Source: Nitrosospira sp. NpAV
Lineage (GTDB): Bacteria > Pseudomonadota > Gammaproteobacteria > Burkholderiales > Nitrosomonadaceae
Direction of reading: 5' to 3'
DNA length: 64,000 bases
NCBI RefSeq assembly: GCF_000832065.1
Contig: NZ_JXQM01000021.1
Span: 62,001-126,000, forward strand
Within the stretch, counting starts at the first letter, position 1; each line of letters starts with the position of its first letter. Below the pieces are notes generated by a model that saw only the letters and a program-made list of their open reading frames with translations, had not been told where the DNA came from and did not search any database. Of this stretch, positions 13,009-28,436 are shown piece by piece. The position numbers and the translations under genes are program-made.

Positions 13009-13027
13009 ATTGCAATAATGTTGCAAT
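13009..13027 (+). promoter_or_regulatory. 19-bp palindrome, candidate Zur operator
   Basis: ATTGCAATAATGTTGCAAT has seven-base perfect arms around a five-base centre, 37 bases before the start of the ZrgA-like gene. A TACAAT box at 13038-13043 could be the -10. Assignment to Zur rests on the zinc-linked genes downstream and the Fur-family gene in the same window. Confidence 0.5.
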
Positions 13028-13063
13028 GATCATGGTCTACAATTGCTAATGGAGAGACAAAAA

Positions 13064-13672
13064 ATGAGACGAATACAGCGGTTTCCGGGTCAGGCAATGC
13101 TCATCGCGATCATCGTATCGGGGCTGCCCGTTTGGGCGCATGAGCCCGGTGCTCATGTGCATGGCCGTGCAGCGCTGGAAATTGCCATTGACGGAGCGGT
13201 GGCACAGGTCAACTTGAATAGCCCGCTGGATAATCTACTGGGATTCGAGCATGCCCCGAGAAACGAAAAAGAGCGTCAAGCCATCAAAGCCATGGCATCG
13301 AAATTGAATGAAGCCAGCAGCCTTTTCGTTTTCACGCCGGCAGCCCAGTGTCGATTGGAATCGGCTGATTTGAACTCTCCCGTACTTTCCGCGGACTTGC
13401 TGCCACCTGCCTCCGGTTCCGGCAAAAGTGCTGATAAAAATAGCGGAGCATCCGAATTTTCCCCGCCCGCCTCTTCCGCTGCCGTCGATGCGCATGCGGA
13501 ATTGGACGCCACCTGGCAGTTCCAGTGCGCGAAGCCACAGGCCTTGCAAGGAGTCGATGTGCAGTTGTTCCGGATGTTTCCCGGTCTGCGGCGTCTCGAT
13601 GTCGCCATAGCGGGCCCCAAGGGGCAGTCAAGCACGAAGTTATCGCCTGAATCCACCCGCTTAAAATGGTAA
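13064..13672 (+). CDS. DUF2796 zinc-binding periplasmic protein (ZrgA-like)
   Basis: About 202 residues with a signal peptide ending PVWA, then HEPGAHVHGRAALEIAIDG, the His-rich opening typical of DUF2796/ZrgA. The middle is low-complexity (Ser, Ala, Asp rich), and the C-terminal part has DATWQFQCAKP and LFRMFPGLRRLDV as in the family. In Vibrio cholerae ZrgA belongs to a zinc-regulated uptake system (ZrgABCDE). GGAGAG eight bases upstream fixes the ATG at 13064. It opens an operon with an ABC ATPase, a PstS-like protein, a permease and a DUF3299 protein. Zinc binding is inferred from the His clusters and the family. Confidence 0.85.
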   Translation: MRRIQRFPGQAMLIAIIVSGLPVWAHEPGAHVHGRAALEIAIDGAVAQVNLNSPLDNLLGFEHAPRNEKERQAIKAMASKLNEASSLFVFTPAAQCRLESADLNSPVLSADLLPPASGSGKSADKNSGASEFSPPASSAAVDAHAELDATWQFQCAKPQALQGVDVQLFRMFPGLRRLDVAIAGPKGQSSTKLSPESTRLKW

Positions 13673-13691
13673 TTGAGTGGGTGGATGAGGA

Positions 13692-14393
13692 ATGAGTCCA
13701 TTTGTGATCGATATTCAGAATCTGGTTTTTCAATGGCCTGGCAAGCATGGTTTTCGTCTGTCGATCCCTCAATTTCTGGTAAGACGCGGGGAGCGTGTTT
13801 TTCTGCAAGGCGCGAGCGGCAGCGGTAAAAGTACCCTGCTGAGCTTGCTGGGCGGTGTCCTGCAGCCGCAGCCATGCCACCTGCGCGTGCTCGATACCGA
13901 CTTGACAACGCTCACATCCAGCGCTCGCGACCGGTTTCGTGTAGATCATGTTGGTTTCCTGTTCCAGCAGTTTAATCTGGTGCCATATTTGTCCGTGCTC
14001 GAAAACGTGCTCCTGCCTTGCCGATTTTCGCAGCGCAGGCGGCGGCAGGCGCTTGAATCAGCAACCTCGCTCGAGCAGTCGGCGGACCGGCTGCTGGGTC
14101 AGTTGGGACTGGATGCGACGCTGGCGCGGCAACCGGTAACCGCATTATCGGTTGGGCAACAGCAGCGTGTGGCGGCTGCTCGGGCACTGATCGGCCACCC
14201 CGAGCTGATCATTGCCGATGAGCCGACTTCCGCACTGGATGCGGGCCGGCAAGCGGAATTTCTTGATCTTCTGCTGAGCCGCTGCGATGATGAGAATGTC
14301 ACGCTGATCTTTGTCAGCCATGACCAGCGGCTGGGATCCCATTTCAGCCGCACCGTCGACTTGAATGAATTGTGCGAAACCACAGCCCTCTGA
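13692..14393 (+). CDS. ABC transporter ATP-binding protein (Zrg-type zinc importer)
   Basis: A 233-residue ATPase of the LolD/MacB-like group. Walker A GASGSGKS is at 40-47, the Q-loop Gln near 92, signature LSVGQ at 152-156 and Walker B LIIADE at 172-177, followed by the switch His in FVSHD. It would energise the FtsX-like permease downstream. It starts 20 bases after the DUF2796 gene with GGATGAGG upstream. Its 3-prime end (DLNELCETTAL) reappears as a decayed copy just before the permease gene, which indicates that the PstS-like gene between them was inserted. Confidence 0.9.
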   Translation: MSPFVIDIQNLVFQWPGKHGFRLSIPQFLVRRGERVFLQGASGSGKSTLLSLLGGVLQPQPCHLRVLDTDLTTLTSSARDRFRVDHVGFLFQQFNLVPYLSVLENVLLPCRFSQRRRRQALESATSLEQSADRLLGQLGLDATLARQPVTALSVGQQQRVAAARALIGHPELIIADEPTSALDAGRQAEFLDLLLSRCDDENVTLIFVSHDQRLGSHFSRTVDLNELCETTAL

Positions 14394-14414
14394 CCAATCG
14401 AATGGAGAGAAAAA

Positions 14415-15434
14415 ATGTCACTATCACATAATCTTAAAGTAGTGGGTGCAGCCGTTGTACTGGGTGCATTGATGAGCGTCGAGGGCATGGCGGGCGCCGA
14501 TACGGTCATAAAAGTCGATGGCTCCAGCACCATGTATCCCATCACGGAAGAGGGGGCAAAGAAATTTCAGACGACCAAAAAAGAGGCGGTCAAGGTATCG
14601 GTCGGCATCTCCGGTACCGGCGGTGGCTTCACGAAATTCTGCCGTGGTGAAATAGATATCGTCAATGCTTCCCGCCCCATTCAAAGAGCGGAAATGAAGG
14701 CGTGCAGCAAGGCTGGTGTGCAATACGTCGAATTGCCGATGGCGTTCGATGCGTTGACCGTAGTGGTGAATCCGAACAATACCTGGAGCAAAACCATGAC
14801 CGTTGCCGAGTTGAAAAAAATATGGGAACCCGCCGCTCAGGGTAAGATTACCAAATGGAGTCAGGTAAATCCGGCATGGCCTGATGAAAAATTCAAGCTC
14901 TATGCCGCAGGCCCGGATTCCGGCACGCTCGATTACTTTACGCAAGCGATTGTGGGCAAGGCCAAATCCAGCCGTAGCGACTTTACGGCATCCGAGGAGG
15001 ACAATAACACACTGATGCAGAATGTGGCTAAGGACAAGAATGCGCTGGGGTTCGTTGGTTTCGGATACTATATGCAGAATCAGGACAAGATCAGCGCTGT
15101 CGCGGTGGATGACGGCAGAAACGGCGGAGTTCTTCCCTCCGCTGAAACGGTGGAGGACGGAACCTATCAACCTTTGTCACGCCCCATCTTCATCTATGTG
15201 AACATGAAGGCGGCGGAGAAACCCGAACTTAAGGAGTTTGTCGCATTCTATATGAAGAATGCATCCGCCCTGGTAAGGGGATTCCAGTATATTCCACTAC
15301 CACCCAGAGCCTACGCCGCCAACATGGAATTCTTCAAGACGAAGCGGTTGGGAACGGTATTCGATGGCTTTGTGCCAGGGGGTCTCACCCTCGATGACCT
15401 GCTCCGGCGAGAAGCCCGCTTTTATGAAAATTGA
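14415..15434 (+). CDS. PstS-like phosphate substrate-binding protein
   Basis: A 339-residue periplasmic binding protein: a signal peptide (cleavage near residue 28, AGA/DT), then the phosphate-binding pattern VDGSSTMYP near 35, [19 protein letters not shown] near 64 and [12 protein letters not shown] near 175. These match PstS/SphX-type proteins that bind phosphate. GGAGAG precedes the ATG. No pstCAB genes are present here; instead it is embedded in the putative zinc importer between ATPase and permease. It may be co-regulated with zinc genes, may be a metal-phosphate scavenger, or may simply be a passenger. Family assignment is firm, role here unknown. Confidence 0.9.
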
Positions 15435-15447
15435 TCATCGCATTGCC

Positions 15448-15534
15448 GTCACCTGCGATTCGCGATTGAGGCTCCATTCGCGACGAACCGCCAGCTTGAA
15501 TGAATTGTGCCGAAGTGCGGGGGAAGCGGGCTGA
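15448..15534 (+). pseudogene. Decayed second copy of the ABC ATPase 3-prime end
   Basis: Read in frame from 15448 this gives VTCDSRLRLHSRRTASLNEL and then C, ending at a TGA at 15532. The intact ATPase ends VSHDQRLGSHFSRTVDLNEL then C. About 12 of 21 residues agree, and 16 bases (CTTGAATGAATTGTGC) are identical at 14360-14375 and 15495-15510. The remnant runs into the start of the permease gene. It is the scar of a duplication or insertion that placed the PstS-like gene inside the operon. Confidence 0.75.
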
Positions 15535-16793
15535 AATCGCTGTTTTCCCTTGCATTTGCCAGCGCGTGGAACCGGCGCGCCACGCTGGGATTGATGGCGG
15601 TCAGTATCGCGCTTTCGGTCATGCTCCTGTTGGGCGTAGAGCAGTTGCGCACCCAGGCGCGCGAAAGCTTCTCGCAGTCCATATCCGGCACCGATCTGGT
15701 GGTGGGTGCGCGCACCAGTCCGATCCAACTCATGCTCTATGCCGTGTTCCGCCTGGGGGATGCCACTCATAACATCCGCTGGGCAAGCTTCCAGGCGATG
15801 GCAGCACATCCGGCGGTGGCATGGGCGGTGCCGATTTCCCTGGGTGATTCGCATCGCGATTTCGCGGTGATAGGCACCACTTCCGCTTATTTCAAATATT
15901 TTCGTTATGGCGATCGCCGACTGCTGGCATTTGCGGCTGGCAAGCCTTTTACGGATATTTTTGACGCGGTTATCGGCGCAGATGTCGCCGCGCAGCTTGG
16001 CTACCAGGTGGGTGACAGTATCGTGCTCAATCATGGCGCGAAAGGCCTCGGGCTGACCGAGCACGCCGATAAACCGTTTAAGGTGAGCGGCATTCTCAAG
16101 CGGACCGGCCTACCCGTGGATCGGAGCGTTCATGTCAGTCTCGAGGGTATTGAAGCCATTCATCTTGACTGGCAAGGTGGCGCTCCGATGCCTGGCGTAT
16201 CCATTCCGGCGGAATATGTACGTAAATTCGACCTGGCTCCAAAGGAAATTACGGCGGCGCTTATCGGGCTGAAAAGCCGTGCGGGGGTTTTTCAGATGCA
16301 GCGGTTCATTAATCAGTACAAGGGAGAGCCATTGCTGGCGGTGCTTCCCGGCGTAGCGCTGGACGAGCTGTGGTCCATCGTCGGCATTGTCGAAAAGTCG
16401 CTGCTGGCTATTTCCGCACTGGTGGTTGCGGTGGGTCTGAGTGGGTTGGTGGCTGTTGTGCTGGCCGGCCTGGGCGAACGCAGGCGCGAACTGGCCATTC
16501 TGCGCTCAGTGGGTGCCGGCCCGCGCGTGGTTTTCCTGCTGTTGGCCATCGAGGGATTGATGGTGGTCGTGGCTGGCGCATTGCTGGGTGTACTGGGCCT
16601 GGCCGTGCTCAGCCTCTTTGCCGCGCCTGTTCTGGAGGCTCGCTTGGGGATTTCGCTGGCGGTAGGTATGCTATCGGCCGAAGCTTGGCAACTACTGTTG
16701 CTTGTCATGGCAATTGGGTTTCTGGTCAGCCTCGTACCCGGTTATCGCGCCTATCGGTTATCCTTAAGCGATGGTTTGACGCCAAGATTATAA
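15507..16793 (+). CDS. FtsX-like ABC transporter permease (Zrg-type)
   Basis: A 428-residue MacB/FtsX-type permease. One membrane span lies near residues 25-45 (LGLMAVSIALSVMLLLGV), then a large periplasmic domain, then three spans from about 295 to 420 containing GLGERRRELAILRSVGAGPR, the conserved cytoplasmic coupling loop. It would pair with the ATPase at 13692. A GTG start at 15507 is used, and it lies inside the decayed ATPase tail; in the ancestral operon ATPase and permease would have overlapped by about 28 bases. Substrate is inferred as zinc, or a zinc complex, from neighbours. Confidence 0.88.
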   Translation: MPKCGGSGLKSLFSLAFASAWNRRATLGLMAVSIALSVMLLLGVEQLRTQARESFSQSISGTDLVVGARTSPIQLMLYAVFRLGDATHNIRWASFQAMAAHPAVAWAVPISLGDSHRDFAVIGTTSAYFKYFRYGDRRLLAFAAGKPFTDIFDAVIGADVAAQLGYQVGDSIVLNHGAKGLGLTEHADKPFKVSGILKRTGLPVDRSVHVSLEGIEAIHLDWQGGAPMPGVSIPAEYVRKFDLAPKEITAALIGLKSRAGVFQMQRFINQYKGEPLLAVLPGVALDELWSIVGIVEKSLLAISALVVAVGLSGLVAVVLAGLGERRRELAILRSVGAGPRVVFLLLAIEGLMVVVAGALLGVLGLAVLSLFAAPVLEARLGISLAVGMLSAEAWQLLLLVMAIGFLVSLVPGYRAYRLSLSDGLTPRL

Positions 16794-16807
16794 AAAAGGA
16801 TATCAAT

Positions 16808-17440
16808 ATGACTGTTTCTCAGTACGTCGCCCTTCCTCGTTTTTTCATTCTATTTTTAATCGCCTTGCTGGTTTTTACCGCACAAATAGCCATCGCGGCG
16901 GATAAGGATTATAAGGTTGGCGATCGATTGTCAGCGCCAGCGCCAGGCGCGGCCAAGAATAAATCTGCGCCTTCGGCACCCGCCTCAGCCGGTTACAAGG
17001 AAAAGACCTGGGATGATCTGATGCCCAAGAACTGGGACCCGATGGCGCCGCTGAAAGGATTGAAGCTGGACAATCTTAAGGATGGCGACCCCCGTGCCAT
17101 CGAAGCGCTGGAAAAAATACGCGCAGCCTGGAATAACGCACCCATCGAGCCCGCCTTGGATGGTGAGCGTATCCGTATTCCCGGCTTCGTCATTCCCCTG
17201 GAGCGAGCAGGCAACAATGTCAGCGAATTCCTGCTCGTCCCCTACTTTGGCGCGTGCATCCATACGCCTCCGCCACCCTCCAACCAGATCATTCATGTGC
17301 GGACATCGAAACCCCTGGCCAATATGCGCACCATGGATACCATGTGGGTCAGCGGGGTGATGCATGCCGGCAAGATCGACACGGAAATGGGCCAGGCGGG
17401 TTATCAATTGAAGGCTGAGTGGATTACGCCTTATCCGTAA
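16808..17440 (+). CDS. DUF3299 periplasmic protein
   Basis: A 210-residue exported protein with a signal peptide (residues 1-31, ending IAIA/AD), a Pro/Ala/Lys-rich linker, and the DUF3299 domain: WDDLMPKNWDP near 72, RIPGFVIPLE near 125, and LLVPYFGACIHTPPPPSNQI near 143, where Cys and His may bind metal. DUF3299 genes are commonly next to DUF2796 and an ABC pair, which supports membership in the same zinc system. Start ATG 16808 has AAAGGA upstream. It is the last gene of the operon. Confidence 0.85.
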   Translation: MTVSQYVALPRFFILFLIALLVFTAQIAIAADKDYKVGDRLSAPAPGAAKNKSAPSAPASAGYKEKTWDDLMPKNWDPMAPLKGLKLDNLKDGDPRAIEALEKIRAAWNNAPIEPALDGERIRIPGFVIPLERAGNNVSEFLLVPYFGACIHTPPPPSNQIIHVRTSKPLANMRTMDTMWVSGVMHAGKIDTEMGQAGYQLKAEWITPYP

Positions 17441-17570
17441 AAACCATGAACAGGAAGCGTTGGGACATTACCCTCCATTGAGAGAATGACGGCAGATCCG
17501 TGACGCCGCCCTATCGTCATGGATTGACTGCGTTTTTCCAGCAAAGCTCATCACCTTGTCGATATCTCTA

Positions 17571-17602
17571 TTGATAATAATATCTCATTATATTATAATC
17601 AA
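17571..17602 (+). promoter_or_regulatory. Sigma70 promoter inside a 32-bp palindrome (candidate Zur site)
   Basis: TTGATA (17571-17576), 17 bases, TATAAT (17594-17599) is a near-consensus promoter. The whole stretch is an inverted repeat: 12 of the 13 outer base pairs match. A repressor bound here would block polymerase. Its downstream gene starts at 17656. Confidence 0.65.
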
Positions 17603-17655: not shown

Positions 17656-18477
17656 ATGAAGAACCTATTCTCCGGCTTGGCCTTAACTGCCGTGCTTGTC
17701 GCGCCCCAGGCCGGCCATGCCTTCAGTTACGATGTGCGGGTGGGCGTCTCGGGCGGACAACTCACGACTGGATTTCATGCTCATGGCAGCCTGCCCCCAG
17801 GCGGTGGATTCGCCAATGATTTCATAACCGGACAGAATTTGTATCCGACTGATTTTGGCGATTTTGGCGGCGGGCCATCGGCAACCAACGACCCTGGGTT
17901 CCAAAGTTTCGCCGGCACCCTCGCCCCCGGGACTGTCGTCTCTATCCAGGGAATAGGAAGCCTGGAGTATTGGACACCCGCAAACCAGACGTGGGCAGCG
18001 CCATCCAATGGCGAACTGATACGGGTGCACGGTGCGATCCCGACGGATATCGCCCTGGCTTATACTTTCTGCCAGAGCGGAGGCGTGCTTTGCGACCCCG
18101 CTCTGGCCGGTCAATATCCATTTTATGCCCAGGGTACCCACTTTTCCGCAAACGGCATTTCCGGCCCCAATCCGGCGATTATCGACGACGCAGATTCTCA
18201 GGGAGCCTTCCATGCACATCTGGATTGGTTTATCGAGAATCCTAATGGAACACCCGCTCCCGGCGCATACCTTGCCACCTTTGCATTGGTTGCGGATGGC
18301 TATCTTGCATCGGAGCCGGTCAAGGTGCTGTTCAACTACGGATTGACGGATGGGCAGTACTTGCTCGCTTTCGAATCCCGCATACAACCCGTTCCCGAGC
18401 CTTCCGCTGTGGCACTCATGCTTGCCGGTCTCGCGTTTCTGGGATTATGGGTCCGTCGGCAATCGGTGTTCGTCTGA
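17656..18477 (+). CDS. PEP-CTERM protein of the zinc island
   Basis: 273 residues with a signal peptide ending GHA, a central domain with GDFGGGPSATNDPGFQSF and a late QGAFHAHLDWFIE, and the C-terminal sorting tail VPEPSAVALMLAGLAFLGLW plus Arg residues. PEP-CTERM tails direct proteins to exosortase for release or anchoring at the cell surface. It is a distant paralogue of the protein at 21152: both have a GDxGG...DPGF segment and a HAH[LI]D motif. Metal binding through the histidines is inference. GGAG lies seven bases before the ATG, behind the palindromic promoter. Confidence 0.85.
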   Translation: MKNLFSGLALTAVLVAPQAGHAFSYDVRVGVSGGQLTTGFHAHGSLPPGGGFANDFITGQNLYPTDFGDFGGGPSATNDPGFQSFAGTLAPGTVVSIQGIGSLEYWTPANQTWAAPSNGELIRVHGAIPTDIALAYTFCQSGGVLCDPALAGQYPFYAQGTHFSANGISGPNPAIIDDADSQGAFHAHLDWFIENPNGTPAPGAYLATFALVADGYLASEPVKVLFNYGLTDGQYLLAFESRIQPVPEPSAVALMLAGLAFLGLWVRRQSVFV

Positions 18478-18629
18478 TCAATCCGGCTTTGGCGTCGCCT
18501 GGAACCGAGCCCAACCCCCTTGCCGTTCAGATAATGTCCTGGCAACCATTCTTCTCTCAGCGGCGTATTCCTTGAGGATGATCCAGCGGTATTCCCGTAC
18601 CGAATAGCGGAAAACGCACTCCCCGGCTC

Positions 18630-20783
18630 TCAGAAAACCAGTTCTATACCCAGTTCGATGCTTCGCCCGGGTTCCGGGCTGAAGTTTCTCAGGAAGGAGG
18701 TCGAGCTGCGGATCTCCTCGTTAAGCAGATTGCGGGCCCGCACAAATACGGACGCTGGCCGACCCATTACCTTGTGCCGGTAGGATGCATGCAGGTTCAA
18801 CAAATTGTAGCCCTTGGTTTCGGTTTCATTGACGCCTGCCCTGTCCTGCGCATTGGCATGCGTGTAGCGGATGCGTGCCGACCATGGCCCGGAGGCTGTG
18901 GCCAGCTGCACTCCATAGCGCAAGGGAGGTTGCCGAGGCACGTTTTCATTTATCGCGGTAAGCCTGGCATGAACATAATCCGAAAATAGAGTGACTTCCA
19001 CTGGCGGCACGATATCCGAGAGCATACGCAGCGTTGCTTCGGCTTCGTACCCCATGAAACGTGCGCTGGCTTGCTCATAATTAATAACCGGCAGGCACTC
19101 ATCGAGACTCACGCAACGCGTTCGGAATCGTCCTTCGTCCGCGTCGAAAAAAATATTGGGAATGCTTCGCTGAAAGACGAAATTATCCACGTCATTGAGA
19201 AACAAGGCCCCGTTGAGGCGTATCCATCTCGCATCGGCGTTCCAGGTCAAGTCTAGACTCCTCATCGATTCCACCTTCAGATTAGAATTGCCGACATCAA
19301 AAGTGTGAGTCGCCAAGTGCGGACCGAAGGAATACAGCTCATGCACTTCCGGCGCTCGCTTGGATCCTGAAAAGATGATGCCGACCGCACTTTTGTCGGC
19401 ATACTGCCAGGTCAAGGAAATGGAACGGCTCTCCACGCTGAAACTACGGCCAGGAAAATTGAGAATCCGTCCATCGACAGTCGATTGCGGACCCGCCACC
19501 AATCTCAGTTGATCGTAGCGCCAGCCACCCTCCAGACGCAGCGTGTCGGTAATATCGAGCCGTTCGTGGATATAGGCGGCGGTGCTGAAGGTATTCGTTT
19601 CCGGGATAAATGCCTCGGCTCCAAGCGCGGAGAAATCGCGGTTCATCATTTGGCCGCCAACCACACCGGAAATGCGTGAGCCCAGCCGATGCTCCACTTC
19701 CAGACGCCCATCCAGCGCCTCGTTGCGAAAAGTGGTCGCGATGCTGCTGCCGGCTTTTTCATGATGCCGGTAGTGAACCCGGCTGACGTTCAGCCTGATA
19801 CGGTCGATCCATTTGCCTGATCCCCATAGCTCCATCCGGCCGTCGTAACGGCGATTGGCCAGATCGATGCTCACATCGCTGCTTCCGCCCCCATGGGAAT
19901 GCGAGCCCGCACTGGGGGGAATGCCATAGGTATTATCCAGCATGGTAGCCGAGGCCCCCACCATTCCCATGCCGGCAAACAATGATCCTCCCACGCTGCC
20001 ACCCTGCGACTGTGCGCCGGTATTGGCGACATGGCCGCAGGTATTGCGCATATTGATAAGGCCGAATTGCTGCTGAATGGCCTTGTCATCGACCGCGCAG
20101 CCATTGATGGAAATGTTGTCACGGCGACGCATGAATCCATCGATATGCATCGCGAATCTGCCGGTGCCCGCGTCGACCTTGAAGGCATTGGTGCTTTCGT
20201 TGCCATTAGCGTTATAGCGCGATTGCACCATTCCGGTAATCACCTGTTTGGGGATACGCTGGGGAATACGGTTGTCTATCACATTCACGGCGCCGCCGAT
20301 GGCATTGCCACCATAACGAATGGTTGCCGGGCCTCGCATTACCTGTATTTCATCCGCCAGAATGGATTCAATGCTGGCGGCATGATCCGGGCTGAACGTT
20401 GTCGCGTCATGCGTGGCAAGTCCATTGCTCAGGAGGCGCACGCGCGGGCCCGACATCCCTCGGATTACCGGCAGGCCAACCCCCGGGCCGAAGGTCGAAT
20501 TGGAAATGCCGGCTTCGTCACTCAGCGTCTCCCCAAGCGTATTGCCTGCACGTTCCCTGAGTGTGTCGCCACGCAGCTTTACAGTCGGCCTGAGCGGTTC
20601 ACGCGGCCCCTCCTCCGGTGCCGCCTTGATTTCTATCGGCTTGAGTGTCGTTTCAGTTGTGGCAGCGGCGGGCTGGTGTGCGGCTGTCTGTGCAAATGCC
20701 GCTGGTAAAGAGACTGTCATAACAGAATTGATAATTACGAACCATGACAGCGTCAGGCACGGCACACGCAGGGTTGAATACAT
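18630..20783 (-). CDS. TonB-dependent outer-membrane receptor (ZnuD-like)
   Basis: 717 residues: signal peptide (ending AAFA), plug domain with LPVIRGMSGPRVRLLSNGLA and DEIQVMRGPATIRYGGNAIG, and a beta-barrel ending in an aromatic-type C-terminus (IELGIELVF). A His-rich loop (SAGSHSHGGGSS, near residue 295) and an extracellular Cys pair are like the zinc receptor ZnuD. It would import zinc or zinc complexes across the outer membrane with TonB energy. It is convergent with the PEP-CTERM gene at 17656 and divergent from the one at 21152. No strong ribosome site is seen. Confidence 0.88.
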   Translation of the reverse strand: MYSTLRVPCLTLSWFVIINSVMTVSLPAAFAQTAAHQPAAATTETTLKPIEIKAAPEEGPREPLRPTVKLRGDTLRERAGNTLGETLSDEAGISNSTFGPGVGLPVIRGMSGPRVRLLSNGLATHDATTFSPDHAASIESILADEIQVMRGPATIRYGGNAIGGAVNVIDNRIPQRIPKQVITGMVQSRYNANGNESTNAFKVDAGTGRFAMHIDGFMRRRDNISINGCAVDDKAIQQQFGLINMRNTCGHVANTGAQSQGGSVGGSLFAGMGMVGASATMLDNTYGIPPSAGSHSHGGGSSDVSIDLANRRYDGRMELWGSGKWIDRIRLNVSRVHYRHHEKAGSSIATTFRNEALDGRLEVEHRLGSRISGVVGGQMMNRDFSALGAEAFIPETNTFSTAAYIHERLDITDTLRLEGGWRYDQLRLVAGPQSTVDGRILNFPGRSFSVESRSISLTWQYADKSAVGIIFSGSKRAPEVHELYSFGPHLATHTFDVGNSNLKVESMRSLDLTWNADARWIRLNGALFLNDVDNFVFQRSIPNIFFDADEGRFRTRCVSLDECLPVINYEQASARFMGYEAEATLRMLSDIVPPVEVTLFSDYVHARLTAINENVPRQPPLRYGVQLATASGPWSARIRYTHANAQDRAGVNETETKGYNLLNLHASYRHKVMGRPASVFVRARNLLNEEIRSSTSFLRNFSPEPGRSIELGIELVF

Positions 20784-21068: not shown

Positions 21069-21151
21069 AGTTCTCGTTTTGAAAGACAATCTCATCAGGC
21101 GACATAAATGCTTGAGATTCATTAGGCAACCCAAACTATAGGAGTGATACG

Positions 21152-21883
21152 ATGTTCAGACCCATGCATGTGACTTTCGGCGCAGCGCTCACCACGCTGG
21201 CCATGATGATTTCTCCTCAGGTTCTCGCGCAGCACGCCGATATCGAGGCGGTTGTGGTCGGCGGCAAGCTGATTGTCGATGAGGAAAATACCGCGCCGGT
21301 CGCATTTGGAACCGGCTACAAGATTTTTGAAGGAGACTTTGGCGATCTGCCGGGCGGGCTTACGGGAACGGACGACCCAGGGTTTTTGGCGCCCTCTGGC
21401 ACGTTTCTCTCCGGGGAGCAGCTCTGGTACCATGCCCTTGGCACTTTGAGCTTCTGGAATGGCACGAGTTGGGCGGCCGCTCCAAGCGGAATTTCGCTGA
21501 CTGTCGAAGATGTACTGGGAAATGAAACACTCATTTCATCCCTCGGTGCAACCAATCCATATGGAGTCATCGATCAGGTCGACTCTACAGGCGGCATTCA
21601 CGCTCATATCGATTTCTCGATATCAAGCGTTAATCCGGTGGGTGCCTATCTCGCGACTTTTGAACTTACCTCGCGCGACGCCTCCGGTAATCTGCCTTCT
21701 CCCTATCTGGATGGCGACCCGTTTCAGATTGCTTTCAACCGTGGGCTGAGCCACGAGGCTTTCGGGGCTTCCATCAGCGCCCTGGTATCTCCTGTTCCCG
21801 AGCCTCAAACCTATGCGATGCTTCTGGCCGGCCTGGCGTTATGCGGTGCCGTCGCCAGGCGCCGCAAGGAAATAGCCGGATAG
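21152..21883 (+). CDS. PEP-CTERM protein, paralogue of the 17656 product
   Basis: 243 residues: signal peptide (ending VLA/QHAD), the domain segment GDLPGGLTGTDDPGFLAPSG, a HAHIDFSIS motif near 150, and the PEP-CTERM tail VPEPQTYAMLLAGLALCGAV plus RRRK. AGGAG precedes the ATG. It shares its overall plan with the 17656 protein. It is divergently placed to the TonB receptor across a 368-base gap holding a candidate regulated promoter. Probably exported and surface-associated; function unknown. Confidence 0.85.
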   Translation: MFRPMHVTFGAALTTLAMMISPQVLAQHADIEAVVVGGKLIVDEENTAPVAFGTGYKIFEGDFGDLPGGLTGTDDPGFLAPSGTFLSGEQLWYHALGTLSFWNGTSWAAAPSGISLTVEDVLGNETLISSLGATNPYGVIDQVDSTGGIHAHIDFSISSVNPVGAYLATFELTSRDASGNLPSPYLDGDPFQIAFNRGLSHEAFGASISALVSPVPEPQTYAMLLAGLALCGAVARRRKEIAG

Positions 21884-21925
21884 CTGCCGGCCTCCCGATC
21901 AGTTTACACATATCTATCTCTTTTT

Positions 21926-21953
21926 ATCCGCAACCCGTTTCAGGGTTGCGGAT
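21926..21953 (+). terminator. Perfect 11-bp hairpin after the PEP-CTERM gene
   Basis: ATCCGCAACCC and GGGTTGCGGAT form a perfect stem with a six-base loop, 42 bases after the stop. The run of T is on the 5-prime side, so on the plus strand it lacks a U-tail. A terminator role is tentative. Confidence 0.4.
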
Positions 21954-22113
21954 ACCTCCTGATAAATACGCTATCGGTAAAAATAGAAGCATATCCGGAA
22001 ATTACATGGCTTTCTGTCCAGCTCGGAGCAACCATGGGAACCGCCCGTGGGATGATTTCCGTAGTTGAGCCGATCGACATGGTTACGCCAAGCTGGATAT
22101 CAGCGTTTCCGGG

Positions 22114-22133
22114 CTTGCCGAGCAGGCGGCAAG
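22114..22133 (-). terminator. Hairpin after amoC
   Basis: CTTGCCG and CGGCAAG pair perfectly around six bases, 14 bases beyond the amoC stop on the minus strand. No U-tract follows, so this may be a stabilising or weak terminator hairpin. Confidence 0.35.
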
Positions 22134-22146
22134 ACAGCACCCAAAA

Positions 22147-22956
22147 CTAGATCCGGTTAAGAATGATTCTGCTCTGATTGTTCCAGACGACATCAGTCAG
22201 GTTGGAAAAGCGGGTGATCATCTGCGCTGCGATACCGCCGGCAAACAGCCCCGACCAGCTCAGGATCACGAAACCCCAGTGCAGCGGTGCGCTGAAGAGC
22301 TCTTCCATAAACCAGAAAGCATGACCCCATTCGTTGAAACCGACGTTAGGCAGGATCATTAGCGGTCCTGCGATTGCCATTACCAAGGGAAACGAGACGC
22401 CCCTGGCATATAACGGCAAGCGGGTCCTGGCATACAAGAATGTCGCCACTCCGCAGGTGATATACATCGGGAACGAGCCATAAAATACAACGATATGGCT
22501 GGGGGTGAAGCTGGTATCCCGGATGATGACTTGATGCCAGGAGGCGTCCTGCTCGGTGAAGAAGCTGCCGCCCCAATAAACTCCGAAGAGATAGATGCCG
22601 GCCCACATGAGCAAGTAAAAATTACGCTTGATCTCCAGTTTCGGATCCAGGTTAGCCAACTCCTCCTCGGTATCCCGTGTTTTCCAGATCCAGCCCCAGG
22701 TAGCCAGCGCAAAAACCGGCATCACGATCATGTGCGCCCGCCATAGGCCCATCCAGACCTTTTCAAATTCGGGCTCCATCGAATCCATTCCATGTGAATA
22801 CGCAAAGGTTCGCTGGTACCAGATCCAGAATATTGCTACGGCCAGCATGGCTAGCAATCCCATCTTGTAATACTTCGAATCGTACCACTGAGACATGTTG
22901 TCTCCGCGATCCAATTCTTCTACCGCCGCTTTCGCGTCTCTCAATGCTGTTGACAT
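22147..22956 (-). CDS. amoC: Ammonia monooxygenase subunit C, solitary copy
   Basis: 269 residues of AmoC, the multi-span membrane subunit of the copper enzyme that oxidises ammonia to hydroxylamine. Recognisable stretches are [52 protein letters not shown] and [20 protein letters not shown], including the conserved Asp/His metal-site residues. AGGAGG seven bases upstream fixes the start at 22956, although the frame is open to 23061. amoA and amoB are absent nearby, so this is a solitary amoC; such copies in Nitrosomonas are stress-induced. Its leader carries three copies of a 20-base repeat. Confidence 0.96.
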
Positions 22957-22995
22957 TTGAATTCCTCCTATTCCGTAATTAAAACCAAAACTGCT

Positions 22996-23085
22996 GGACG
23001 GATGGTCAGAGTCCTCGATATAAACCGGCATTGCGCCGACGGACAGGTATTCAGAGTCCAACTGCGGACGGGTGGTCAGAGTCCT
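22996..23085. repeat. Three 20-bp repeats in the amoC leader
   Basis: Copies at 22996-23015, 23041-23060 and 23066-23085 follow the plus-strand pattern GGACGGATGGTCAGAGTCC with one to four changes. They lie 40-130 bases upstream of the amoC ATG and match the two copies upstream of the 23577 gene in sequence and orientation. Each copy has GGAC and GTCC ends. Confidence 0.8.
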
Positions 23086-23208
23086 AAGATGACAGGCAAA
23101 CCTGTATGCTTATTGATGCATCCGAGTTTGCCTTGCCAAGTACGGCCTGTATCACTTACCTACTGTTTGTGGCATTTGGCCGTCATGAATCTCATAATTG
23201 GGCTGAGG

Positions 23209-23577
23209 TTATTGCGCCATTTGGCGATGGGAAGCAGCCTCCTCCATATTTGATCGCGCAGCTTGCTCATACTTGCGTATCAAGGCCGCGGTACGCGATT
23301 TCAAATTGTGGGATTGCCAGCCATACAAACGCATCTCCTCATACTGTTCAAGCAGTTTCTTTTGTTCATCCGCCTTGGCTTGCATTTCCCTGGCGGCATC
23401 TTCAAAATGCTCTACCAAAGCACAATGTTCGCTTAGAGATGCAACATTCTGAACAGCTGATTGACTAGAGGGAGTTTCTGCTTTTACGGCATTTATTGGC
23501 GCACATACAGCCAATAAACCAAGTAGAGAAAAAGCCGTAAGAATATCTTTTGCTTTTTTGCCGAGAGTCGTTGCCAT
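23209..23577 (-). CDS. Small secreted helical protein, family member 1 of 3
   Basis: 122 residues: an N-terminal hydrophobic segment with LLAVCAPINA (possible lipobox LAVC), then a long charged helical region with VEHFEDAAREMQAKADEQKK and LLEQYEEMRLYG. The pattern H[FY]E..A..M..KA..Q...L..YE recurs in the proteins at 30278 and 47214, making a paralogous family. AGGAGA lies upstream of the ATG. It is next to amoC on the same strand, with the same repeat block in its leader. Function unknown; coiled-coil-like envelope protein is as far as the sequence goes. Confidence 0.75.
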   Translation of the reverse strand: MATTLGKKAKDILTAFSLLGLLAVCAPINAVKAETPSSQSAVQNVASLSEHCALVEHFEDAAREMQAKADEQKKLLEQYEEMRLYGWQSHNLKSRTAALIRKYEQAARSNMEEAASHRQMAQ

Positions 23578-23613
23578 TTTGATTCTCCTGTTCCAATTGA
23601 TTAGATCAATATC

Positions 23614-23662
23614 GGACGGATAGTCAGAGTCCTTTTACTTCCGGACAGATGGTCAGAGTCGT
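23614..23662. repeat. Two more copies of the amoC-leader repeat
   Basis: Copies at 23614-23633 (GGACGGATAGTCAGAGTCCT) and 23643-23662 (GGACAGATGGTCAGAGTCGT). They sit 37-85 bases upstream of the start of the small protein gene at 23577, in the same orientation to it as the three copies are to amoC. Confidence 0.8.
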
Positions 23663-24210
23663 AGGAGTGAGTCCATATTAACCCCGATGCCACTATGGAG
23701 ATATTGGGGAAACCCTGATTCGATACTAAGGAAATGCTTGATTTTGTACTAAGGGAAATCCTTAGATAATGGAAAAAATCAGAAATACAATCCGATACTG
23801 GAGCTTGATCGCGAGATAAAAATTCAACAGCAGCAGCTTAAAGAAGCGCAATTATCATAGATAAATTCGAGGATCCAGACTGTCAATCCGGAGCTCCGGA
23901 ATTGAAGGAGGATCAGCTCATCCAATGATTTTAGGGATGGCCTTTCTCAGAAAACTCATGAGCGCGCTAAGAAATTGGAATCTTTCGCCAGCTGCACCGA
24001 AGGAGATCCTAGCTGTCCCGAGCCACAATAAATAAATCATTGGAAAGAATTACAGCACCTCCCTTTATTGCCTCGGATTCCTCCGATGCGCAAGCAGGCG
24101 ATACCATATGCTCTTCCTCCGCTTGAACCATTGGCCGAAAGGAAATCACTTCCTGCGCCGCTAATTGGAAACAACTTCAGACGAGTAGCGGAACATCCGG
24201 CATGCTCCAT
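23663..24210. other. Gap without a recognisable gene
   Basis: 548 bases. Short Gln/Lys-rich open stretches occur around 23800-23860 but lack starts and continuity, and may be remnants of an old gene. No RNA gene or clear repeat seen. Confidence 0.4.
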
Positions 24211-24588
24211 TCAAGGTTTGGGCTGACACTCGCTGCATCGGCCATAAAGAATCAGATCGTATTTTTCGATTACGAAATCGCGAGGGACCAGAAGATTGCT
24301 CTTCTTGATCCTCTCGTGTATGTCGAATACCCTGCTGCAAGCACTACACTTGAAATGATAATGATCGCCTAGCTGGGTCATCTCATAGCGATCTGCCTCG
24401 CCAGGTAGCTTGACCGGCAAAATCCAGCTCTCGGCCGTCAAGTCCTTCAATGTCCGATAAACCGTTGCGATGCTCAGTGACGGCACTACTGCCTGCCCCG
24501 CCGCGAGTATTTCCTGCGTGGAAAGCGGCCTTCCCGCTTCCGAGATGGCATCAAGAATCGCATTGCGCTGCCGGGTATTACGTTCCAT
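24211..24588 (-). CDS. Fur-family repressor, probable Zur
   Basis: 125 residues, normal for the family. The winged helix lies in the first 70 residues (LSIATVYRTLKDL at about 38-50 is the recognition helix). It has the metal motif HYHFKC at 76-81 and two CxxC pairs, C81/C84 and C118/C121, for structural zinc. Fur and Zur cannot be separated from sequence alone; the surrounding zinc-scarcity genes make Zur likely. It would repress uptake genes when zinc is sufficient. GAGGGG lies upstream of the ATG. It is divergent from the all3515-like gene, and its own promoter overlaps a palindrome, suggesting autoregulation. Confidence 0.88.
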   Translation of the reverse strand: MERNTRQRNAILDAISEAGRPLSTQEILAAGQAVVPSLSIATVYRTLKDLTAESWILPVKLPGEADRYEMTQLGDHYHFKCSACSRVFDIHERIKKSNLLVPRDFVIEKYDLILYGRCSECQPKP

Positions 24589-24681
24589 GGATTCCCCTCA
24601 ACAATATCGATTTCGGGATGGGTTGCTGGCGATATCAGCACAAGCAGCCCAATCTTTGGTTCATGGCATTAACAAGCCTTG

Positions 24682-24711
24682 ACTATATGCTATTGATAAC
24701 TTATTATCAAT
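24682..24711 (-). promoter_or_regulatory. Promoter of the Fur/Zur gene overlapping a 20-bp palindrome
   Basis: On the minus strand TTGATA (24705-24710), 17 bases, TATAGT (24682-24687). The -35 is in the palindrome ATTGATAACTTATTATCAAT (24692-24711), which has perfect eight-base arms. It sits between the divergent repressor and PEP-CTERM genes and could control both. Confidence 0.6.
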
Positions 24712-24806
24712 TAATCCATGTCGATCATGATATAGAAAAATTGGATCCTAATAGAGATGAAAGTAGTAGCACATGTTCATTTTATAACTGTAAAAGGAGA
24801 AAGTAT

Positions 24807-25640
24807 ATGCGGCTTACATTGAGAAGCACTGCTATGAACCTGGCAGGCCTGCTTATTCTGGCGTCGTTCAACGCATCAGCGTCACGGCATGATGAAGGTA
24901 TTGGTTTTTACGTCGGTTACGACGGGCTAGCCACGATTGCTTCCGGCACCTACGGCGAACTCCCCAACCCAAACTCAGACCGCCTCACCCTTCTGCTCGA
25001 CCACGGCAATCACTTTCATGGCATCGGGGCATATAGTTACAGCGGACCGGCGGCTGCACCGAAGGTATTGTCCACCAGCCCCAATAATCGTATTCCCGAA
25101 ATTTCTTCGCGCGAGGAACCGCTTTCCCTGGCAGCGGGTAGCGGGCTCTATGCCGGAACGTTGCGAACCCATATAGACAGCTCCGAATACAGCTATCTCG
25201 GCATCGCTTCCATCCAATCCCTGGCGGGCCATTCTTCAGGCAGCACTGAAGACGTCCTTTTCCATAGCAGCAGCGATCGCTGGTCGGGGCAACTGGATAA
25301 CGCTGAGATCGGCCTAAGATTGGTCGAAAGCACTCCAGGACTGCATATTGGAACCGAGACAACGCGGGATATTTATAGCCATGGCGACCTATTCACGCTG
25401 GGAGCAGGCAACAGCTTCGAATTCAAGCCGATTTACTGGGTCGATGAAAATGCCGCGGCGGGCGTTTACTCGGCAACATTCGAATTGTTGAATATGGGCG
25501 CGAATTCAGCTTTCCAGGACTCAGGCACGTTCCAATTCGATTTTGCCGTTTCACCGGTGCCGGAACCGAGCTCTTATGCAATGCTCGTCGCAGGCCTGTT
25601 TGTATTGACATGGACAGCGCGCCGACGAACCCAGTATTGA
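24807..25640 (+). CDS. PEP-CTERM protein resembling the all3515 Zur-repressed family
   Basis: 277 residues: signal peptide (ending ASA/SRHDE), FYVGYDGLATIASGTYGELP near 34, a His cluster DHGNHFHGIGAYSYSG near 68, and the tail VPEPSSYAMLVAGLFVLTW plus ARRRTQY. The N-terminal pattern is as I recall for the cyanobacterial all3515-type family, annotated as Zur-repressed PEP-CTERM proteins. AAGGAGA precedes the ATG. It is divergent from the Fur/Zur gene with a shared palindrome. Likely exported under zinc limitation and metal-binding at the surface (inference). Confidence 0.85.
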   Translation: MRLTLRSTAMNLAGLLILASFNASASRHDEGIGFYVGYDGLATIASGTYGELPNPNSDRLTLLLDHGNHFHGIGAYSYSGPAAAPKVLSTSPNNRIPEISSREEPLSLAAGSGLYAGTLRTHIDSSEYSYLGIASIQSLAGHSSGSTEDVLFHSSSDRWSGQLDNAEIGLRLVESTPGLHIGTETTRDIYSHGDLFTLGAGNSFEFKPIYWVDENAAAGVYSATFELLNMGANSAFQDSGTFQFDFAVSPVPEPSSYAMLVAGLFVLTWTARRRTQY

Positions 25641-25704
25641 TTTAAGCATACCCAGTTTCTCCTGACCAACCTGAGCGCTGGCCACCCACTTAGCCAGTTA
25701 ATCT

Positions 25705-25751
25705 GCCAACTATCGGCCAACTAAGCAGCCAACTAAGCAGCCAACTAAGCG
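25705..25751. repeat. Short tandem repeat before the COG0523 gene
   Basis: Four direct units, GCCAACTATCG then three of GCCAACTAAGC[AG], end nine bases before the ATG at 25760. They occupy the ribosome-site region, and no normal Shine-Dalgarno is seen. Confidence 0.7.
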
Positions 25752-25759
25752 AGATCGTT

Positions 25760-27019
25760 ATGACAATAAGGGATGAGCGTCTGCCGGTTACGGTCCTTTC
25801 CGGCTTTCTGGGTGCAGGCAAGACTACGTTGCTTAATCACGTTCTGGCGAATCGTGCAGGATTGCGTGTAGCAGTGATCGTGAATGACATGAGCGAAGTG
25901 AATATCGATGCCTCCCTGATTGAAAGAAGCACCGAGAATGCGGGAGCGGCATTGTCCCGCACTGAAGAAAGGCTGGTCGAGATGAGCAACGGCTGTATCT
26001 GTTGCACGTTGCGCGAGGATTTACTTACGGAGGTGCGCAAGCTCTCGGTGGAGGGGCGCTTCGATTATCTTTTGATCGAATCGACAGGAATCGGCGAACC
26101 GATGCCTGTCGCGGCAACGTTTGATTTCCGGGACGAAGAAGGCAGTTCGCTAAACGATATCGCGCGCATAGACACCATGGTCACGGTGGTGGATGCAGTT
26201 AACCTGCTGGATGATTTCTCAAGCGAGGATTCGCTGGCGCAACGCGGCGAGGTTGCGGGAGACGAGGACAACCGGACGTTAGCCAGTTTATTGACCGAGC
26301 AAATCGAGTTTGCGGATGTCATTGTGGTAAGTAAGGTGGATCGAGTCAGCCTGAATAAATTGAGGGAAGTGACCGGCGCGATCAAGGCATTGAACCCGGT
26401 GGCGGAAATCGTTTACGCCGAACATGGTGATGTTCCCTTAAGAAAAATTCTTGGCACCGGCCGATTCGATCTGGATCGTGCCAGCGGCATGGCGGGCTGG
26501 GCTAAGGAGATGGCTGGGGAGCATACCCCGGAAACAGAGGAATACGGCATCAGCAGTTTCGTCCTGCGCATACGCCAGCCCCTCCATCCCCAGCGTTTTG
26601 CAGCCTTTCTAGAAATGCCGCTGCCGGGTGTATTACGGGCTAAAGGCTATGTATGGTTGGCCAGCCGGCCGGAATGGGCAATATCCTATTCACGTTCCGG
26701 CAATACTGCTGCGGTGGAGCCGGTGGGGCGGTGGTGGGCGGCGGTACCGAAACAACGCTGGCCCGCCGAGGGAAGCCATGAGCGAGCCTTGATAGAGCAG
26801 AATTGGCAGCCGCCCTACGGGGACCGTATCAATGAAGTAGTCTTCATTGGTCGCCATAAGGATTGGGATCGGGCATTGATTGAAATGGCCTTTGCAACAT
26901 GCCGCCTTACATCCACGGAAATCCGCAAGGGTGTGGAGCATTGGCGCACACTGACGGACCAGTTTCCTGAGTGGACTGCCACGGTGGCATCGACAGGGGA
27001 GGAAGCGAACCATCCATGA
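25760..27019 (+). CDS. COG0523 G3E GTPase, zinc metallochaperone (CobW/ZigA-like)
   Basis: 419 residues. P-loop GFLGAGKTT at 15-23, the metal motif CICC at 79-82 inside [12 protein letters not shown], a Mg/switch segment [10 protein letters not shown] near 113, a base-recognition SKVD near 192, and the CobW C-terminal domain. COG0523 proteins of this subgroup deliver zinc to client proteins under zinc starvation. It leads a tightly packed operon with a small protein, a DksA paralogue and a DUF1826 protein, an association known for zinc-linked COG0523 genes. Its stop overlaps the next ATG (ATGA). Confidence 0.93.
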
Positions 27020-27234
27020 GTGCGATAATCCCGGAGACTTTCGGTGAATGGCATCATTGCATCGAGCATGACTGTGGCATTCGGTTGACCGAAGAATTCA
27101 TCCAAGGGCGGTTGATGGTATTGCGCGACTCGCAGCATGAGGAAACACAACGTTTTATTCGGCACTATGGGGAAGCGCACTGGCAAAGAACCGTGAGCTG
27201 GTTTGAGCGTGCAAATAATGACATTCATCGCTGA
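27016..27234 (+). CDS. Small acidic/His-rich protein in the zinc operon
   Basis: 72 residues, overlapping the GTPase stop by four bases, so translation is coupled. It is rich in His, Glu and aromatic residues, with [20 protein letters not shown] near the start. The pair C-x(4)-C with adjacent His could hold a metal. No family recognised. Its place between GTPase and DksA paralogue suggests a role in zinc handling. Confidence 0.65.
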
Positions 27235-27277
27235 CGGCACATTATCCGTGGCGGGCAGCTTCTTATTGGTGAGAGCC

Positions 27278-27703
27278 ATGAAAAAAGAACGATCGCCTGA
27301 TCTTACAAAGAAAGCTATTCGCGCGGTCCCGCCGGGCGAATATATGTGCCCTGCACAGCTGGGGTTCTTTCGTCTCCGCCTGGAAGACGAACGGAACAAG
27401 CTGCTGGAAAATGCGCAAGGCACGCTTGAGCAGATGCAGGCCATTGTTTCCGAGCCTGATCCAAATGACCGGGCAAGCACGGAGGAAAAATTTTCCCTTG
27501 AGTTCCGAGTAAGAGACCGGGAGCGTAAATTACTTAAAAAAATCGAGGATACCCTTTTGCGCATTGAAAACGGCACCTATGGCTGGTGCGCGGATACAGG
27601 CGAACCCATCGGCCTCCCCCGTTTGCTGGCGAGGCCAACAGCCACGCTCTGCATTGAAGCACAGGAGCGCCACGAACTTCATGAGCGAAGCTATGGCATC
27701 TAA
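27278..27703 (+). CDS. dksA: DksA paralogue with half of the zinc cysteines (DksA2-like)
   Basis: 141 residues. A coiled-coil region with acidic tip (EPDPNDRAST, Asp61 and Asp64) is followed by the C-terminal globular part GTYGWCADTGEPIGLPRL. The four zinc cysteines of DksA are reduced to two: C104 and C125 remain, while the partners are Thr107 and Ala128. This is the pattern of Pseudomonas DksA2, which works without zinc and replaces DksA in zinc starvation. It would bind RNA polymerase and act with ppGpp. It lies between the COG0523 GTPase and the DUF1826 gene. Confidence 0.88.
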   Translation: MKKERSPDLTKKAIRAVPPGEYMCPAQLGFFRLRLEDERNKLLENAQGTLEQMQAIVSEPDPNDRASTEEKFSLEFRVRDRERKLLKKIEDTLLRIENGTYGWCADTGEPIGLPRLLARPTATLCIEAQERHELHERSYGI

Positions 27704-28436
27704 CGGTTTCTCCCCCGTAAACAGATGCGAATTCCGGGATAAGCAGTCTTCGTCCATGCCTGCCAGCGTACTTGAAGAACCTTCTTCTACAGCCCATTCT
27801 CTTCAGCGGTATGCATGGACAACGCGCCAACCGGATGAGCTGCCCCGGATTTTTGATGCCGGCATTCAGGTTGTCCGCTGGCAACGGCAGGAGGAGCAGG
27901 CTATCAGGGCATATTTCCAGCATGCACTGACCAGCGGCGCTCTGGGCAGCGGTTTTCGTACAATTATTGGGCTGGGTGAACGATTAAAATCCGCCTTTCT
28001 GCCAAATCTACCTGGTCAGAATGCTATCGTTGATGACATCTGCCAGCTTTCAGATATCTATTCGGAACTTCTTGGATGCGACGCGGTGGGCCTGCGCCTG
28101 GAAATTCTCCATGGAGCGATGTGCCCGCGCTTTCACGTGGACCGTACCGGCATACGGCTGGCTTGCGCTTACCTCGGTTCGGGTACGGAATGGATCGACG
28201 ACCGATGGGTCGACCGCAGCAAGCTTGGCCTCGGATCAAACGGGGTTTCCGACGAAGTTTCCGGTTTGTACGATCACAGAACCATGGTGGAAGCAGCCGC
28301 GCCTTTTGATGTGGTGTTTTTTAAAGGCATACTATGGCAAGGGAATAATGGAAGGGGCGCAATCCATCGCTCGCCAGCTGTCGCGCCTGGTAACGGGCCA
28401 CGTGTCCTCCTCGTAATAGACGCGATCTGGAATTGA
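27681..28436 (+). CDS. DUF1826 domain protein
   Basis: About 251 residues of the DUF1826 family, with WTTRQPDELPRIFDAGIQVV near 50, LLGCDAVGLRLEILHGAMCP near 152, a following RFHVDRTGIRL and YLGSGTEWI. The conserved Cys, His and Asp could bind metal. DUF1826 genes often sit next to zinc-linked COG0523 GTPases. Start chosen at 27681 overlaps the end of the DksA gene by 23 bases; an ATG at 27693 is an alternative. Function unknown. Confidence 0.82.
   Translation: MSEAMASNGFSPVNRCEFRDKQSSSMPASVLEEPSSTAHSLQRYAWTTRQPDELPRIFDAGIQVVRWQRQEEQAIRAYFQHALTSGALGSGFRTIIGLGERLKSAFLPNLPGQNAIVDDICQLSDIYSELLGCDAVGLRLEILHGAMCPRFHVDRTGIRLACAYLGSGTEWIDDRWVDRSKLGLGSNGVSDEVSGLYDHRTMVEAAAPFDVVFFKGILWQGNNGRGAIHRSPAVAPGNGPRVLLVIDAIWN

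Follow-up and report, generated by a model that had tools for sequence, protein, structure and literature searches.

A zinc-scarcity island in Nitrosospira probably under two Fur-family switches, with an unnamed surface protein family beside a ZnuD-like receptor

Two described systems come close to the locus analysed here. Sarasa-Buisan et al. 2024 (PMC10957091) described ZepA/All3515 as a zinc exoprotein, and in Vibrio the Zrg importer set is repressed by zinc through Zur (PMC9817125). We analysed a 64-kb stretch of DNA (the window) of the ammonia oxidiser Nitrosospira sp. NpAV, part of contig C107 of a draft genome of 3.45 Mb (99.9% complete, 315 contigs; contigs, genomes and loci carry our own C, G and L numbers), in which a gene cluster forms two blocks, at 13043-17440 and 17656-28436. 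Like Vibrio ZrgABCDE, block 1 holds DUF2796, ABC ATPase, permease and DUF3299 genes behind a metal-type operator; unlike it, a PstS-like gene is inserted and no DUF2607 match was found among the genes scanned, and its operator reads TGCAAC-N3-GTTGCA, as against the TGTTATATTATAACA-type site of V. parahaemolyticus (PMC9817125). Block 2 resembles the ZepA locus, with zepA beside Fur-family, COG0523, DksA, TonB-receptor and other PEP-CTERM genes, and with a 16-bp operator 5' of zepA as that paper gives for proteobacteria (PMC10957091). Its TonB receptor has ZnuD (NF038289) as best NCBIfam match, at 339 bits against a cut-off of 950, and, unlike ZnuD, is flanked by two genes that we call HAH1 and HAH2.

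The original prediction for this DNA had called the interleaving with amoC unexpected; the arrangement as a whole is less surprising, because the passages of the ZepA paper already show a similar neighbourhood and the 16-bp operator. The passages compared do not define the HAH family, the link between that family and the receptor, or a second type of operator. We read the cluster as a genuine zinc-scarcity island built mostly from known parts, most likely under two Fur-family repressors rather than one, with a new surface family tied to a receptor.

The case for two repressors begins with the four palindromes of the island, which had been predicted to be related. Three of them, at about 17570, 21038 and 24692, do share one form, ATTGATAA-N4-TTATCAAT (operator 1). 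One lies in the divergent promoter of the island's Fur-family gene and zepA (24689-24714), overlapping the -10 of a TTGACT-17-TATTAT promoter (24679-24707), and the others lie 5' of HAH1 (17567-17592) and between the ZnuD-like gene and HAH2 (21035-21060). In a matrix trained on 11 other genomes, with the window left out, these are the window's top three matches (33.7, 22.4 and 20.6 bits, respectively), the next match reaching only 10.3; in random sequence with the window's neighbour-base frequencies, matches of at least 20.5 bits occur at 0.004 per 64 kb (4 in 63.5 Mb). The comparison set comprised 91 genomes of the family, 13 of them with zepA and 29 with ZrgA above cut-off. The regulator gene was found in the fetched regions of 12 (the window plus 11, among them G022, which is without zepA), and in all 12 its promoter holds GCTATTGATAACTTATTATCAATAGC or a close variant, so that the island regulator combines a conserved operator over its own promoter with zinc-type targets. 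The HAH1 site recurs in L029 (11.2 bits), L035 (14.7 bits) and L039 (18.7 bits), and the receptor/HAH2 site in L035, L039 and L117, with nothing above 9 bits in L029. A search of the own genome with the window's own operator 1 site, allowing up to 3 mismatches, gave 16 places (3 of them the island's), versus 6 for a reversed control.

The fourth palindrome, ATTGCAATAATGTTGCAAT at 13009-13027, 5' of the zrg operon, proved to be of another type, TGCAAC-N3-GTTGCA (operator 2). The genome-wide motif search that had been suggested with this site, run with up to 2 mismatches, returned 25 matches against 6 for a reversed control, and one of them pointed to a different Fur-family gene, on contig C297 outside the window, in whose promoter it lies. 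Orthologs of this second gene were found in 58 of the 91 family genomes (E<=1e-49), and all 30 of their promoters that were examined, the own genome included, carry AATGCAACTnnGTTGCAAT or a near form: at least 12 of 16 positions agree in 30/30 (reached by 31 of 3000 shuffles) and at least 13 in 28/30 (3 of 3000), and a TATAGT-like -10 adjoins the operator in most of the promoters printed. A matrix trained on these promoters only, with the own genome left out, places 13009 first in the window at 23.9 bits, the next match scoring 11.3. Because the box at 13009 is of the type found at the second Fur-family gene, whereas the remaining three match the one at the island regulator's promoter, two repressors most likely have operators in the island, and we consider a zinc-scarcity island with two control switches to be the probable reading of the sequence.

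Operator 2 has further places. It stands at zrgA in L119 and L121, the other five of the seven aligned zrg loci being without it. In each of the four genomes fetched around the second regulator gene (L229-L232; 27.2, 27.4, 26.4 and 15.6 bits) it also precedes an adjoining gene for a second ZnuD-like receptor. In L229 (4242-6485) this receptor (NF038289, 477 bits) lies beside the E. coli-Zur-like regulator gene and the gene of an unnamed small protein. On contig C202 of the own genome operator 2 precedes a NicO-family gene (26.5 bits). The same region (L163, G000:C202:160000-168000) holds a MerC-family gene with an operator 1-type box, a match with two mismatches about 110 bases upstream of it, followed by the short NicO-family gene directly behind operator 2. 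Twenty of the 25 matched regions were fetched, and several candidate sites were set aside: L165 (18.6 bits), the only fetched region above 13 bits other than that of the NicO gene, where the match falls inside a long open frame; C85:196590, where frames overlap and no start of a gene was recognised; and C85:84500 and C297:70536, which score 5.1 and 0.4.

The two control circuits may also touch each other. In L293, operator 2 (26.4 bits) lies 18-36 bases 5' of tonB, which is followed by exbB, exbD and an island-type regulator gene; together with the presence of both regulator genes in L117 (genome G022), this suggests that the two regulators are wired together. The L293 set (6292-8717) runs in one direction, with HAH2, ZnuD-like receptor and zrg genes nearby and a fragment of a ZIP zinc transporter gene on its other side. 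L117 holds a ZnuD-like receptor gene and HAH2 in the same locus, without zepA.

What is new in the island is that its two PEP-CTERM proteins other than ZepA, HAH1 (17656-18477, plus strand, motif HAHLDW) and HAH2 (21152-21883, plus strand, motif HAHIDF), form one unnamed family with an H-x-H motif. The two share 31% identity and are homologous (E 5e-29 when four sequences were compared), and their Pfam and NCBIfam matches are confined to the PEP-CTERM end region. In alignments of 18, 30 and 25 rows, D30, T73, P76, G77, W107, H150 and H152 are invariant, and the motif H-x-H-L/I/V is present in 68 of the 69 sequences collected, some of them entered twice. A protein of L117 at 6440, without the motif and matched by its tail alone, was discarded as a false member. 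By HMM the family was found in 5 of 369 genomes of the class and 15 of 399 of the order (the own genome counted in each, and one of the 15, G003, with a weak C-terminal match only), and a BLAST search with a threshold of 78 bits found it in 19 of the 91 family genomes; Nitrosomonas species, Methylomonas methanica and two MAGs (metagenome-assembled genomes) of Methylococcaceae are among its holders. No paper naming the family was found, in searches for which the family is nameless and which left most subscription journals outside their coverage.

The family travels with the receptor. Counting one locus per fetched place (19, 4 and 15 loci plus the window, some genomes contributing two), a ZnuD-like receptor gene is present in 35 of 39 HAH loci, the nearest HAH match being within about 405 bases of it in 34 of these 35 and in the same open frame in L295. 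Two of the loci without a receptor, L105 and L306, are truncated where their contig ends; in the other two, L030 and L302, the HAH gene is a second copy next to zepA, and the same genomes hold another copy (L118 and L303) that does have a receptor. Among loci from named records (Nitrosomonas and methanotrophs), a set that partly overlaps the 39, the receptor is present in 20 of 21, the miss again being at a contig end. The C-terminal part of the HAH proteins varies: the window's genus and most relatives in the order have PEP-CTERM, L225 and L227 an autotransporter, L228 Kelch repeats and L255 PKD; HAH1 of Nitrosomonas has a dockerin-like stretch (tested in L108), and several others have no Pfam match. 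In L295 (4223-10627) a single frame of 2134 amino acids runs from HAH1 through passenger repeats, an autotransporter barrel and a plug to the TonB receptor, possibly through a lost stop codon or an assembly error. The varied surface modules and this joined frame argue that the HAH domain is placed outside the cell, beside the receptor.

Judged from its promoters, the HAH-receptor module also appears to be governed by a different operator type in each of three groups. The receptor-HAH1-HAH2 set of Nitrosomonas carries a further palindrome, ATGATATAACAT/ATGTTATAACAT, which agrees with what we take to be the usual Zur core at 11 or 12 of 12 positions in 10 of 13 loci (L028, L106-L116 and L118) and at 10 of 12 in the remaining three. 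When shuffles from all loci were pooled, 6 of 1710 reached at least 11, a rate that is likely higher for AT-rich promoters alone. Elsewhere the score is 9 of 12 in L301, of the same genus, 8 and 10 in the named loci L240 and L246, 12 of 12 in the Methylococcaceae locus L252, and 9 and 8 in L251 and L255.

From this context we infer that the HAH proteins are a surface zinc-capture partner of the ZnuD-like receptor. More broadly, and tentatively, they may be a new family of surface-tethered zinc-catchers dedicated to such receptors in ammonia oxidisers, methane oxidisers and other bacteria, anchored by exosortase, autotransporter or other modules and even by fusion to the receptor, and governed by three unrelated operators; we hold this to be possible at somewhat less than even chances. 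That the HAH proteins have an everyday surface or biofilm role and simply accompany the receptor gene is an explanation that we regard as rather unlikely. No solved or curated relative of the family was found (for the HAH profile none among solved structures at E<=1, and nothing at E<=0.001 in a viral structure library), a fold search touches pilin-like beta-sandwiches weakly, and in L030 and L302 the HAH gene stands without a receptor, all of which would suit such proteins; what speaks for a partner is that adjacency holds in 35 of 39 loci despite different surface modules and with the same H-x-H motif, that HAH and receptor genes often share an intergenic operator, and that they are once joined in a single frame. 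The AlphaFold2 model of HAH2 is beta-rich (pLDDT 83.8), with 0.43 as the best TM score in the fold search. Because no close structural relative was found there, metal binding by HAH is argued from the H-x-H motif and the context. HAH and ZepA were kept apart as families, since a profile comparison aligns only the last strands and the PEP-CTERM tail.

For operator 2, zinc is a likelier signal than nickel. The C297 protein has as its nearest solved chain 4mtd ('Zinc uptake regulation protein', E 4e-9), which we take to be the Zur of E. coli, and is farther from 3eyy (E 1.4e-4), presumably Nur; its best NCBIfam match is Zur, below cut-off (46.5 of 167). The nearness to 4mtd agrees with a published classification of N. 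europaea NE1722 as a Zur protein (PMC3050691), if NE1722 is the ortholog of the C297 protein. A Nur-like nickel sensor, under which the zrg-PstS operon would here answer to nickel, seems distinctly unlikely. Operator 2 does fit the published consensus tTGCaa-N5-ttGCAA, the Streptomyces Nur box TTGCAA-N5-TTGCAA (PMC3919588), and one gene under it is of the NicO family (a short protein of 156 amino acids); here, however, the owner of the promoter is nearer to Zur than to Nur, and ZrgA is a zinc protein in Vibrio (PMC9817125). In addition, operator 2 stands at zepA, HAH, ZnuD-like or ZigA-like starts in 5 of the 15 order-search loci (L292, L294, L296, L297 and L298; 15.7 to 22.9 bits), the chance rate at 15 bits being 0.13 per 64 kb for the window's base make-up and the 15 loci totalling 246 kb. 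Since ZepA is a shown zinc protein, this ties operator 2 to zinc in those loci.

The island regulator (24211-24588, minus strand; PF01475 66.5 bits, cut-off 23.1) is a Fur-family protein that we call Zur-like by context, in the sense only that it works like Zur. Its nearest solved chains are of PerR and Fur, headed by 2fe3 ('Peroxide operon regulator', E 1.2e-10), and 3mwm, which we take to be a Zur, comes fifth of 19 (E 2e-7). A regulator answering to iron, manganese or peroxide (Fur-, Mur- or PerR-like), the cluster being a general metal-stress set, would account for this and for the best NCBIfam matches, which are PerR models, all below cut-off. We think it improbable, in view of the zinc-type targets (ZepA, COG0523, a zinc-poor DksA and the ZnuD-like receptor), of a separate Fur-family gene on C1 that has the best FUR score (153 bits), and of the control of zepA by Zur in Anabaena (PMC10957091).

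Least probable of all, and to our mind very unlikely, is the single Zur regulon of the original prediction, in which the island regulator binds all four palindromes: all four do lie in promoters of zinc-type genes, G022 has both Fur-family genes in one locus (L117) and L293 has operator 2 in front of a gene set whose last member is an island-type regulator gene, but the zrg operator matches the second Fur-family gene's promoter and the other three match the island regulator's own, 13009 being the window's best match to the second matrix and outside the 25 best of the island matrix, the other three sites being outside the second matrix's 8 best window matches, and a 13009-type box standing at zrgA in G034 and G036, which gave no zepA match (the island-type regulator was not directly searched for there).

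Several observations weigh against two zinc-responsive switches as we propose them, among them the likeness of operator 2 to the nickel box, the NicO-family gene, the lack of a close solved fold for HAH2 and the closer relation of the island regulator to PerR and Fur than to proteobacterial Zur, given above. Operator 1 is not found before regulator relatives of 60% identity in L292 and L293 (best scores below zero), and so the pairing of protein and operator is not seen outside the family; nor was it found at HAH promoters outside Nitrosomonadaceae. Two zepA genomes, G074 and G088, gave no match to an island-type regulator in the regions fetched. Operator 2 is at zrgA in only 2 of 14 other zrg-bearing loci (threshold 13.5 bits), is at HAH, zepA or receptor starts in only those 5 of 15 order loci and in none of the four class loci (L225-L228), and has matches of 16.5-18.9 bits away from mapped gene starts (L105/L241, L118/L245, L236 and L253).

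An amoC gene lies within the island, as originally described; it is complete (22147 to about 22957), with no amoA or amoB among its neighbours there. Its interleaving with the zinc genes is not conserved: the regions fetched from the 12 other genomes with zepA, each some 10 to 40 kb long, gave no amoC match. Among the window's best matches to either operator matrix there is no site at amoC, and four near-copies of a 20-bp repeat, GGACGGATGGTCAGAGTCCT, stand within about 700 bases 5' of the gene (22996-23662; shuffles gave 0). On these grounds we rejected amoC as a member of the regulon; with neither kind of operator, it looks like an incidental insertion that intruded locally. The draft genome has one other copy, partial and at a contig end. 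Beside the repeats lies the gene of a small, possibly exported protein (23209-23577), and in L117 of G022 an amoC fragment stands at the contig start, about 7 kb from the second regulator gene.

The remaining genes are largely of known kinds (zrg, zepA of the all3515 family, COG0523, DksA and DUF1826), and family profiles bore out the list originally drawn up from the sequence, namely DUF2796, an ABC pair, DUF3299, and ZnuD-like, Fur-family, COG0523, DksA, DUF1826 and PEP-CTERM genes; what it had overlooked were the PstS-like gene between the ABC genes, the zrg name and the all3515/ZepA identity. In block 1, on the plus strand throughout, zrgA (13043-13672; DUF2796, a periplasmic zinc-binding protein) scores 168.5 bits with PF10986 (cut-off 27.4) and 103.7 with NF047873, below its stricter cut-off of 185; an ATG at 13064 is a possible alternative start. 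It is followed by a zrgC-like ABC transporter ATPase gene (13692-14393; PF00005 and operon position), the PstS-family substrate-binding protein gene (14415-15434; TIGR02136 285.9 bits, cut-off 206.6), a zrgB-like gene for an FtsX/MacB-type ABC permease (15507-16793; PF12704 and PF02687) and a zrgE-like DUF3299 gene that starts at the ATG at 16808 (16808-17440; PF11736 155.7 bits on 16937-17440, cut-off 22). ZrgA above its Pfam cut-off thus shares one operon with ATPase, permease and DUF3299, as expected of a Zrg importer. A gene for such a phosphate-type PstS-family protein is also present in five other zrg loci of the genus, L119, L120, L121, L122 and L124, all five with a polyphosphate kinase 2 (PPK2) match in the same locus.

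Block 2 begins with HAH1, the ZnuD-like receptor gene (18630-20783, minus strand) and HAH2; at 338.8 bits with NF038289, below the strict cut-off of 950, the receptor falls outside ZnuD in the strict sense. Beyond amoC and the regulator gene come, on the plus strand, zepA (24807-25640; NF040463 290.2 bits, cut-off 75), a COG0523/ZigA-like GTPase gene (25760-27019; NF038288 575.2 bits, cut-off 600; PF02492), a DksA paralog gene (27278-27703; TIGR02420 138.6 bits, cut-off 115.5) and a DUF1826 gene of uncertain start (27693-28436; PF08856 162.3 bits, cut-off 22). ZepA, a zinc-handling PEP-CTERM exoprotein, shows the H-x2-9-H-F/Y-H motif and PEP-CTERM end of its family as HGNHFH and a VPEP tail, and three histidine columns (66, 69 and 71) are invariant in 15 of 15 aligned sequences. 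The DksA paralog had been said to lack zinc ligands, and direct reading of the sequence agrees, since it retains just two of the usual four zinc cysteines (CADT...CIEA); the own genome has three further DksA/TraR zinc-finger genes. Both blocks occur together in the relatives G054 (L039) and G056 (L035, with zrgA at the far end). In L119 and L121 the zrg-PstS operon lies between PPK2 and an MgtC-like gene, with block 2 not at that place, and the regulator-zepA-GTPase-DksA-DUF1826 part occurs without a ZrgA match in L031, L032, L034, L036, L037, L038 and L040.

Zinc scarcity, Fur-family control and surface capture, the core of what had been proposed, find support in the gene families, the conserved operators and the published zinc roles of ZrgA and ZepA. 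In the mechanism that we envisage, when zinc is high the island repressor would sit on the operator 1 sites over three promoters and shut off itself, zepA, the COG0523 GTPase, the zinc-poor DksA, DUF1826, HAH1, HAH2 and the ZnuD-like receptor, and the second, E. coli-Zur-like repressor, encoded elsewhere, would sit on operator 2 and silence the zrg importer, its own gene, the second ZnuD-like receptor and the NicO-family gene. As zinc falls, both repressors would release. Zinc would then be caught by ZepA and the HAH proteins, which after export would stay attached to the cell surface, and would presumably be passed to the ZnuD-like receptor, which would carry it across the outer membrane, with the Zrg transporter taking it across the inner one, and the GTPase and the alternative DksA would spare or redirect zinc.

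As to how Gram-negative cells bring scarce external zinc to an outer-membrane receptor, the ZepA paper proposes that a secreted protein passes it on to a TonB receptor, without identifying the partner (PMC10957091). The HAH proteins and the ZnuD-like receptor make a concrete, testable candidate pair, with one domain, one adjacent receptor and one genome in which the two share a single frame. The island further suggests that what looks like one 'Zur regulon' can be split between two repressors, in which case regulon predictions made with a single motif would miss part of it.

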